Of a stretch of 53,126 nucleotides of DNA, positions 22,561 through 53,045 are shown piece after piece. The translations under genes were made by a program, and so were the position numbers. The notes under the pieces are model-generated. The model worked only from the letters and a program-made list of their open reading frames with translations, did no database searches and was not told where the DNA came from. The stretch comes from Marivita sp. (lineage in GTDB: Bacteria; Pseudomonadota; Alphaproteobacteria; Rhodobacterales; Rhodobacteraceae): NCBI RefSeq assembly GCF_022763305.1, contig NZ_JALEGT010000014.1, forward strand, positions 1 through 53,126, given 5' to 3'. Every line of letters starts with the position of its first letter. Within the stretch, counting starts at the first letter, position 1.

Positions 22561-22720
22561 GGCGGGTTTCTGCGCTACGCGTGACAGGTTGCATTCCGGT
22601 GGCCTTAAGCAATTCCGAGGGAGTTGGCTCTGTCCGGGCCCTGGTCCGGTTACCCGACGCCCACCTGTATATACAGGTCCTCGGGAATGAGAGAACCGCA
22701 CGGTTGCCGTGGTTCCCGCC
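22561..22720 (+). ncRNA. ssrS: Candidate 6S RNA (SsrS)
   Basis: A gene-free 160-base stretch with ends that pair (GGCGGG at 22561-22566 with CCCGCC at 22715-22720). Inner helices form a rod: ATTCCGAGG (22612-22620) pairs with CCTCGGGAAT (22679-22688) around one bulge, and ACCTGTATATACAGGT (22663-22678) is a perfect apical-type hairpin. A possible -35 TTGTCA lies at 22525-22530. Length and rod shape with internal bubbles fit alphaproteobacterial 6S RNA, which binds sigma-70 RNA polymerase. The family call is from pattern memory, not a covariance-model search. Confidence 0.6.
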
Positions 22721-45859: not shown

Positions 45860-46045
45860 ACCGGGCGGGTTGTACGCCCGATGCGTCACGGTCCGGGCAA
45901 CCCCCGGTGAAAAGGGAACGTGGTGAAAACCCACGACTGCCCCCGCAACTGTAAGCGGCGAGCGTGTTCGGCACATGCCACTGGGAAACCGGGAAGGCCC
46001 GACACACGCAACGACCCGCAAGTCAGGAGACCTGCCGCGACGGAT
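45860..46045 (+). promoter_or_regulatory. Cobalamin riboswitch (adenosylcobalamin aptamer)
   Basis: All core blocks of the B12 aptamer are present in order: GGGAACGTGGTGAAAACCCA at 45914-45933, CGACTGCCCCCGCAACTGTA at 45934-45953 followed by AGCGG, GCCACTGGGAAACCGGGAAG at 45977-45996, and the B12 box AGTCAGGAGACCTGCC at 46021-46036. Downstream hairpins (CCCGCGC...GCGCGGG near 46055, and GGTGAC-AGT-CACC) form the likely expression platform before btuC. High cobalamin should switch off the seven genes that follow. The 5' boundary is approximate. Confidence 0.96.
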
Positions 46046-46160
46046 CACCCTACACCCGCGCGGGGCGCGCGGGATGTGACGGACCTCCGGTGTGGTGACA
46101 GTCACCGTCTTTGGGCGCGTCCCGAAGGCTTGATATGTTCGATGCGCGGGAGACAGAGCG

Positions 46161-52270: not shown

Positions 52271-52289
52271 CTATGCAATTGCTGCATAG
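52271..52289. promoter_or_regulatory. 19-bp inverted repeat in the mrp/DUF1127 divergent promoter region
   Basis: CTATGCAATTGCTGCATAG has 7-bp perfect arms around ATTGC. It lies 114 bases from the mrp start and 95 bases from the DUF1127 start, so it may be an operator for either. I cannot name the regulator. Confidence 0.45.
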
Positions 52290-52383
52290 CAGCATTGTAG
52301 CAAATCCGGATTGTGCAGGCGCAGCATTCGCCTATTTTTGTCTCAAGCGAACGGAAACACGCAAATTCGAACAGAGCAGACAG

Positions 52384-52602
52384 ATGGCTTACGAAACAAA
52401 CACACTCGGCGCAGTCGGCAACGGCATCATGGATCGGGTCAACACCCTGATCGCCGATTACCGCGCCAAAGCGGCACGCCGCAAGATCTACCGCGACACC
52501 CTGCGCGAACTCAGCGCGCTGTCGCACCGCGAGTTGTGCGATCTGGGATTGAACCATTCCGAGATCAAGCGCGTTGCGTATCAGGCAGCTTACGAAAGCT
52601 GA
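52384..52602 (+). CDS. ccaF1: DUF1127 small RNA-binding-type protein (CcaF1-like)
   Basis: A 72-residue basic protein. The C-terminal DUF1127 motif is YRDTLRELSALSHRELCDLGLNHSEIKRVAYQAAYES near residues 36-72, with the L-x-x-L-s-x-r-x-L-x-D-l-G core. In Rhodobacter sphaeroides the homologue CcaF1 is co-transcribed with the CcsR sRNAs, binds RNA and affects their maturation. The same arrangement is seen here: four CcsR-like units start 53 bases after the stop. Confidence 0.92.
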   Translation: MAYETNTLGAVGNGIMDRVNTLIADYRAKAARRKIYRDTLRELSALSHRELCDLGLNHSEIKRVAYQAAYES

Positions 52603-52654
52603 TCGACATTCGGTGAGCAAGCGCCCCAACGGGCCCCTCACCACACCGGCTCGG

Positions 52655-52726
52655 GCGTCCTCTCCTCCTCCCTGGACGTTCCGGACTTGACGGTGGCACC
52701 CCTCCTCCTCCCTGGGTGTCACCGTC
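52655..52726 (+). ncRNA. ccsR1: CcsR/cuckoo RNA unit 1
   Basis: Two hairpins: GCGTCC/GGACGT (52655-52679) and GACGGTGGCACC with GGGTGTCACCGTC (52689-52726). Both loops hold CCTCCTCCC (52664-52672 and 52704-52712). The first stem is weaker and less conserved than in the later units. Confidence 0.85.
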
Positions 52727-52756
52727 GCAGAATTCGGGCTTCGGCCCACACGAGAT

Positions 52757-52829
52757 CGGCATCCTCTCCTCCTCCCTGGATGCCGTGATCCTGACGGTGG
52801 CACCTCTCCTCCTCCCTGGTGCCACCGTC
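52757..52829 (+). ncRNA. ccsR2: CcsR/cuckoo RNA unit 2
   Basis: Hairpin 1 CGGCATCC/GGATGCCG (52757-52785) and hairpin 2 with a perfect 12-bp stem GACGGTGGCACC/GGTGCCACCGTC (52793-52829). CCTCCTCCC lies in both loops (52768-52776, 52808-52816). Confidence 0.9.
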
Positions 52830-52860
52830 ACAAGGTTTCGGGCTCCGGCCCACACGAGCT

Positions 52861-52933
52861 CGGCATCCTCTCCTCCTCCCTGGATGTCGTGATCCCGACG
52901 GTGGCACCTCTCCTCCTCCCTGGTGCCACCGTC
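52861..52933 (+). ncRNA. ccsR3: CcsR/cuckoo RNA unit 3
   Basis: Near copy of unit 2: hairpin 1 CGGCATCC/GGATGTCG (52861-52889) with one G-U change and hairpin 2 (52897-52933) with the same 12-bp stem. CCTCCTCCC lies in both loops (52872-52880, 52912-52920). Confidence 0.9.
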
Positions 52934-52963
52934 ACAAGTTTCGGGCTTCGGCCCATTCGAGAT

Positions 52964-53045
52964 CGGTGTCCTCTCCTCCTCCCTGGACGCCGTGAACTGG
53001 AAACGGTGGTGCCTCTCCTCCCTTGGCACCACCGTTTTTTCTTTT
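52964..53045 (+). ncRNA. ccsR4: CcsR/cuckoo RNA unit 4 with terminator
   Basis: Hairpin 1 CGGTGTCC/GGACGCCG (52964-52992) with CCTCCTCCC at 52975-52983. Hairpin 2 (53002-53036) has stem AACGGTGGTGCC/GGCACCACCGTT, a shortened loop with only CCTCCC, and a following T-run, so it doubles as the terminator of the whole transcript. Confidence 0.9.
53002..53045 (+). terminator. Intrinsic terminator of the DUF1127-CcsR transcript
   Basis: A 12-bp perfect stem followed by TTTTCTTTT. It ends the operon that starts at the DUF1127 gene. Confidence 0.92.

Follow-up and report, generated by a model that had tools for sequence, protein, structure and literature searches.

The window analysed here, a 53,126-nt stretch of Marivita sp. 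DNA that makes up one entire contig (C40) of a 4.43-Mb, 121-contig genome assembly, carries a cuckoo/CcsR small RNA array of the CIN1 type. This assignment is well supported, so that the Marivita array adds a member to a known kind of locus. Comparison with relatives singled out dctQ of a TRAP transporter, the best conserved candidate, as a likely target of the array's loops. On the sequence evidence described below, we consider it probable that one transcript is cut into sRNAs whose loops block GGGAGG ribosome sites, with dctQ as the best candidate; a LysR-type regulator is proposed to act at the promoter.

A four-unit cuckoo array behind a DUF1127 gene

The features of the locus are listed in Table 1. 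An earlier note on this DNA, made from its letters, had described four two-hairpin units behind a DUF1127 gene and seven loops with exact CCTCCTCCC, and both descriptions held. The four-unit array spans 52650-53037 on the plus strand and ends about 80 nt short of the contig end, and CCTCCTCCC was found on the plus strand at 52664, 52704, 52768, 52808, 52872, 52912 and 52975, with no further site on either strand of the window. The eighth hairpin is the terminator; its loop (53014-53024) is a shortened TCTCCTCCCTT, and a T run follows the hairpin. The leader hairpin and the three spacer hairpins had been missed in that note. In the whole 4.43-Mb genome, CTCCTCCTCCCTGG occurs at seven sites, all inside the array, and the reversed control at none. 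The predicted fold of the array had an energy of -188.2 kcal/mol versus -133.4 +- 5.5 kcal/mol for 200 dinucleotide shuffles, none of which was equally low (0/200; z about -9.9). Local fold prediction gave each of the seven 9-nt loops as fully unpaired at P 0.83-0.88.

Table 1. Features of the cuckoo/CcsR locus in the Marivita sp. window
Feature	Positions	Strand	Remarks
LTTR-like box TGCATAGCAGCATTG (reverse complement CAATGCTGCTATGCA)	52283..52297	+	13/15 bases of the Brucella VtlR motif as given in PMC12595884
Promoter block TTGTGC-N16-TATTTT, GCAGCAT in between	52311..52338	+	kept 5' of DUF1127 in relatives
DUF1127 protein, 72 aa, CcaF1-like	52384..52602	+	PF06568, E 2e-9
Leader hairpin, in the interval from the DUF1127 stop codon to unit 1	52612..52642	+	predicted fold only
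Cuckoo/CcsR unit 1, two hairpins, loops 52664 and 52704	52650..52727	+	R1 75.8 bits
Spacer hairpin 1, GGGC-TTCG-GCCC	52736..52747	+	covarying helix 3
Cuckoo/CcsR unit 2, loops 52768 and 52808	52754..52830	+	R1 82.2 bits; unit itself among the 30 rows of R1
Spacer hairpin 2, GGGC-TCCG-GCCC	52840..52851	+	covarying helix 3
Cuckoo/CcsR unit 3, loops 52872 and 52912	52858..52934	+	R1 79.2 bits
Spacer hairpin 3, GGGC-TTCG-GCCC	52943..52954	+	covarying helix 3
Cuckoo/CcsR unit 4, loop 52975 and terminator hairpin 53003-53035	52961..53037	+	R1 63.4 bits; last-unit alignment

The upstream gene on the opposite strand encodes a Mrp/NUBPL-type protein (PF10609). The DUF1127 protein shares 99% identity with its counterpart in Marivita cryptomonadis; its best 41 named relatives come from genera such as Marivita, Pelagimonas, Tropicibacter, Leisingera and Phaeobacter. 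A scan of the array against Rfam gave no family at threshold; our own covariance model R1 matches the array but contains unit 2. Elsewhere in the window, the Rfam models detected a 6S RNA at 22564-22719 (RF00013, 49.5 bits, barely over threshold) and a cobalamin riboswitch at 45872-46053 (RF00174, 131.7 bits).

The identity that the earlier note had assigned to the array was supported by each feature that sequence can test, namely the loop motif, paired stems, tandem two-hairpin units and an upstream DUF1127 gene. The CcsR loops of Rhodobacter sphaeroides carry CCUCCUCCC. The CIN1 locus of that species, with CcsR1-4 and CcaF1, is described as having a DUF1127 gene, then four homologous sRNAs and a terminator (PMC10253847), which is the layout found here. 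The two loci, likened by description and not base by base, differ in the promoter, described in the same source as RpoHI/RpoHII and not LysR, whereas Marivita has a VtlR/LsrB-like box; and a conserved TRAP site, present in Marivita, is not among the features given for CcsR1-4 in the descriptions compared. The anti-SD loop motif, variable stems and DUF1127 association are likewise described for the cuckoo RNA family of Reinkensmeier and Giegerich 2015 (PMC10253847, PMC10746234). NfeR1/alpha-r14/SmelA075 of Sinorhizobium meliloti resembles the array in its CCUCCUCCC hairpins, in mRNA silencing at the ribosome site through these motifs and in activation by LsrB (PMC10746234, PMC3927594), and differs in that it is described as a standalone sRNA with three hairpins and not as a processed array behind DUF1127. 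The anti-SD reading of such loops is itself not new, since it has been in print for related sRNAs since 2011 (PMC3927594), and pairing with SD-like sites was proposed earlier for related sRNAs (PMC3927594, PMC10746234).

dctQ of a TRAP transporter as a candidate target

To our knowledge, few targets of cuckoo anti-SD loops are known. The perfect loop complement, GGGAGGAGG, is found 22 times in the own genome, and the cuckoo loops themselves account for nine of these. Three of the 13 non-cuckoo sites precede a start codon and a long frame, those of two dctQ-type TRAP genes (PF04290) and of an AMP-binding enzyme; with just 3/13 in ribosome-site position, the idea that every GGGAGGAGG site is a target was ruled out. 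Across the genus genomes, GGGAGGAGGN{3,9}ATG was found at 92 places, 23 within cuckoo loci and 69 elsewhere. We examined 63 of the latter 69 (four were not fetched, and two own sites lay outside the clustering), and 54 of the 63 start a frame of at least 40 aa. A single orthologous dctQ forms the largest group; it has GGGAGGAGG at its ribosome site in 15 of the 17 genus genomes (not seen in G005 and G010), with a constant 9-mer and a spacer to ATG of varying length. In the own genome, this ribosome site with the perfect loop complement lies at G000:C52:4771-4786 (L194, L292). The other groups are a second dctQ (6), a DctP receptor (5), a TctC receptor (3), a 49-aa protein (3) and the AMP-binding enzyme (2), so that TRAP components, as judged by group representative, make up 27 of the 54 sites.

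We then compared the ribosome site of dctQ with the presence of cuckoo RNAs in the family. The dctQ query matched 194 of the 295 family genomes at E <=1e-3, and upstream DNA was taken from 90 of the best. GGGAGG lay at most 75 nt upstream of dctQ in 64 of the 70 genomes with the two-motif pattern (two motifs 18-48 nt apart) versus 12 of the 20 without it. Note that the strict pattern alone missed cuckoo RNAs in 10 of these 20 dctQ genomes, as well as in the genus genome G003, and that the covariance model R1 recovered them. After the model was applied, GGGAGG stood at dctQ in 72 of the 79 genomes with, versus 4 of the 10 without, a cuckoo RNA (Fisher p 5e-4, kinship ignored); here, G173 was excluded because its upstream bases are masked, G058 (GAGGAGG) was not counted as GGGAGG, and G090 was counted, although its GGGAGG is a long way 5' of the match. 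Narrowing the upstream search interval from 75 to 45 nt gave counts of 70/79 versus 4/10 (p 0.001). It may be that small array-less genomes use SD sites less, and the genomes compared are related. The full 9-mer was found at dctQ in eight family genomes, all of them pattern-positive, and AGGAGG replaces GGGAGG at dctQ in only two genomes.

In the own genome, 263 GGGAGG and 266 AGGAGG sites precede an ATG (backward controls, 28 and 25), and this equal frequency indicates that the ribosome does not require the leading G. GGGAGG was present in 27 of the 30 best family dctQ orthologs versus 5/30 and 1/30 for two control genes (Fisher 1e-8 and 2e-12), which were the only two used, were taken from the window and both have GGGAGG in the own genome. 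dctM was dropped as a control gene because it has nearly no SD and is therefore uninformative. In predicted pairing with the loop, GGGAGGA reached -14.3 kcal/mol versus -11.8 kcal/mol for AGGAGGA, and the assumed 16S tail sequence gave -10.3 kcal/mol for both, so that it is the first G, with its gain of 2.5 kcal/mol, that discriminates between loop and ribosome. With the 9-mer site in full, the A and G variants paired equally with the loop (-20.3 kcal/mol both), slippage of the loop having abolished this gain. A further candidate, the DUF1127 mRNA as a target of its own array, was rejected, since GGAGG was absent ahead of the start in all 38 upstream regions listed, one of which (L494) starts at an internal GTT. 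The targets reported for CcsR of R. sphaeroides in PMC8307010 are flhR and C1 metabolism, not TRAP genes, which speaks against the dctQ reading.

Even with a true cuckoo array, the GGGAGG of dctQ could be kept for another anti-SD sRNA of the AbcR type, or simply as a strong G-rich ribosome site. GGGAGG is retained in four of the ten genomes without a detected cuckoo RNA, and seven of the 79 genomes with one lack it. Moreover, AbcR1 and AbcR2 of rhizobia are described as bearing a CUCCUCCC loop and acting on transporter mRNAs, with LsrB/VtlR control of AbcR1 (PMC8844928, PMC7486931); they differ from the array in belonging to another sRNA family (alpha-r15) and in having two different motifs. 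However, GGGAGG tracks cuckoo presence at dctQ and is not kept in the two control genes, and we regard this explanation as rather unlikely. We also find it improbable that the loops act mainly as sponges or decoys that sequester either a G-rich sRNA or the G-rich 5' part of initiation complexes. Up to eight loops per transcript would suit such a role, and alphaproteobacterial sRNA sponges exist, as described for CrfA on SisA-D (PMC12559287), but NfeR1 is reported to silence mRNAs (PMC10746234), and the site at dctQ is specific and conserved.

Conservation and covariation of the hairpins

The two-motif pattern is present in 16 of the 17 genus genomes, and the seventeenth (G003) has two units as detected by the covariance model (E 2.8e-9 and 3.3e-6). 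With one genome per genus, the pattern was found in 216 of 295 genomes of the family. A DUF1127 gene lies directly upstream in all 16 genus loci found by pattern; of the 30 family loci fetched, 26 have such a gene no more than 700 nt upstream, and the model matches stand behind a DUF1127 gene in 41/41 named relatives. The family loci L165 and L178 have motif pairs or several single hairpins with no DUF1127 nearby and are possibly other cuckoo locus types. The family genome G181 (L167) has a very long cuckoo array, in which 25 pairs were counted and the 26 motifs follow a regular repeat of three hairpins.

According to the earlier note, the array would be refuted if close relatives had lost the pairing of the hairpins; they have instead kept it, with compensatory changes. 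In three helices of 30 non-terminal genus units, 99.0% of cells were paired and 13 of the 24 pairs had changed on both sides, versus a mean of 4.6 in shuffles (none of 500 reached this number) and 0-2 such pairs in slid versions. The count of further pair types in these 30 genus units was no higher than in the shuffles (182/500 as high). The third helix is the small spacer hairpin GGGC-NNNN-GCCC, with both-side changes in two of its four pairs. We also aligned 30 sequences from across the family, 27 being contributed by other genera; here, both partners vary in 17 of the 19 pairs, and pairing is intact in 81.3% of cells. For hairpin 1 the value is just 68.5%, which is partly an alignment effect.

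The loop is invariant while the stems covary. This argues against the hairpins being mainly cis elements of the 3' UTR, which would protect, process or terminate the DUF1127 mRNA or serve as a platform for the DUF1127 protein or Hfq, as does a standalone plasmid copy without DUF1127 (see below). The hairpins do sit in a 3' UTR, and CcaF1 and Hfq are reported to bind CcsR in R. sphaeroides (PMC10253847, PMC8307010, PMC5036791); nevertheless, we consider a mainly cis role very improbable. Although copying can spread repeats, a chance or DNA-level repeat with no RNA function was ruled out for practical purposes by the shuffle fold test and by the covariation in genus and family, in which compensatory changes far exceed those in shuffled and slid controls, and the promoter and terminator are conserved as well.

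Unit types and array growth

Units 2 and 3, called nearly identical in the earlier note, do share 93.3% identity (96.2% across the two hairpins). Their nearest relatives in another species have 94.2 and 95.1% identity to them, however, indicating that the duplication was not recent or that the copies were homogenised. The same note had taken units 1 and 4 as drifted, a view that gave way to two positional types. The nearest neighbour of a first unit is another species' first unit for 13 of 16 (own included), and each of the 16 aligned arrays closes with a unit that bears the terminator hairpin. Of the 16 genus arrays, seven have two units, four have three and five have four. The smallest arrays combine a first-type unit with a terminator-type unit, and in larger arrays internal units are added to these. 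Mean identity among internal units is 90.1% within and 89.1% between species, and that among first units is 77.7%. The range of two to four units and the likeness of internal units are consistent with gain and loss of internal units. Growth of the array by internal duplication, as suggested in the note, therefore agrees with the genus range, and a recent duplication of units 2 and 3 does not agree with the identities unless the copies were homogenised.

Promoter and candidate regulator

The block TTGTGCA-N3-GCAGCAT-..-TAT and the palindromic box TGCATAGCAGCATTG are conserved 5' of DUF1127 in the genus and near relatives. TGCATAGCAGCATTG is the sole window site with 13 or more matches to the Brucella VtlR motif, five other window sites reaching 12, and many genus members have a box score of 12. 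The VtlR/LsrB consensus is given as GCAT-N3-TG-N3-T (PMC7486931, PMC8844928); the array promoter, GCAT-AGC-AG-CAT-T, has one mismatch to it, and in several plasmid copies the match is exact. The promoter pattern TTGTGCRNNNGCAGCATN{4,6}TAT has exactly two sites in the genome, one before DUF1127 and the other before a second cuckoo copy (control, 0), and both promoters hold a VtlR/LsrB-like box. As LsrB is reported to activate NfeR1, a cuckoo-type sRNA, in S. meliloti (PMC10746234), a LysR link across families is plausible, though the RpoHI/RpoHII promoter described for R. sphaeroides speaks against it. From these motifs, we propose that a LysR regulator of the VtlR/LsrB kind may act at the array promoter.

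Cuckoo RNAs on plasmids and cuckoo-like hairpins in phages

The second cuckoo RNA, which is unannotated and has two hairpins, lies on contig C6 (4731 bases) at G000:C6:2369-2443 (L201; 59.4 bits, E 2.5e-8). It stands alone, without DUF1127, 5' of an AAA_34/strawberry-notch-like gene (PF13872), and we infer that C6 is a plasmid in this Marivita sp. strain. A weak third model match was seen at G000:C51:1551-1622 (L193; E 0.0097), with CCTCCTCCC between CGCTGC and GCAGCG. A blastn search with the C6 cuckoo RNA gave 25 matches, on Rhodobacterales plasmids, among 72,556 plasmid records; 15 of the 25 are typed as mobilizable and 10 not, and the copy was unannotated in all 20 matches listed. In the 12 plasmid records fetched, both motifs and the hairpins are kept; six copies precede a strawberry notch gene, and the others are elsewhere. 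TTGTGC was found in 11 of 13 C6-type copies. A long-sequence search of plasmids with the array gave no match.

In IMG/VR, the two-motif pattern was found in at least 120 stretches. Among the 80 loci listed, 25 (e.g. L077:3888 and L100:1797) have both motifs flanked by stems that score >=5; the rest lack such stems and may be chance matches. Two isolated Rhizobium phages match one IMG/VR locus, RHph_TM3_3_3 with two motifs and RHph_N28_2 with one, the hairpins being at L530:2501-2545 and L531:2522. These observations suggest, tentatively, that cuckoo RNAs may also travel on mobile elements, adding anti-SD sRNA dose to the host stress circuit via a host-like promoter block and a VtlR/LsrB-like box, with a conserved output that includes the TRAP transporter. 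A search of the openly accessible literature gave no report of a TRAP target or of mobile cuckoo RNAs, either of which the primary CcaF1, CcsR and cuckoo papers could contain.

Proposed mechanism and significance

In the reading that we prefer, a single transcript would run from the conserved promoter (about 52340) through the DUF1127 gene and the array to the last hairpin, and a LysR regulator of the VtlR/LsrB kind would be active at this promoter. By analogy with R. sphaeroides, cleavage of the transcript would release the DUF1127 mRNA as well as four sRNAs of two hairpins each, presumably with the involvement of RNase E, PNPase and the DUF1127 protein. Each sRNA is predicted to expose two accessible CCUCCUCCC loops, which would pair with GGGAGG-type ribosome sites and thereby block translation, and several units could provide both dose and redundancy. 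With dctQ as the best conserved candidate, the array would lower TRAP nutrient import under stress. SorY of R. sphaeroides, an unrelated sRNA, is described as a stress sRNA that limits malate import via a transporter mRNA (PMC5036791; takP is a TRAP gene, PMC1839085) and is a precedent for reduced TRAP import during oxidative stress.

What the comparison adds to a known kind of locus is a concrete conserved candidate target, dctQ of the TRAP transporter, together with a proposed transcriptional regulator and mobile relatives. Should the mobile copies prove active, a host sRNA circuit would be extended by plasmids and phages that use the host's own promoter logic, which, if true, would be relevant to marine Rhodobacterales and their plasmids.
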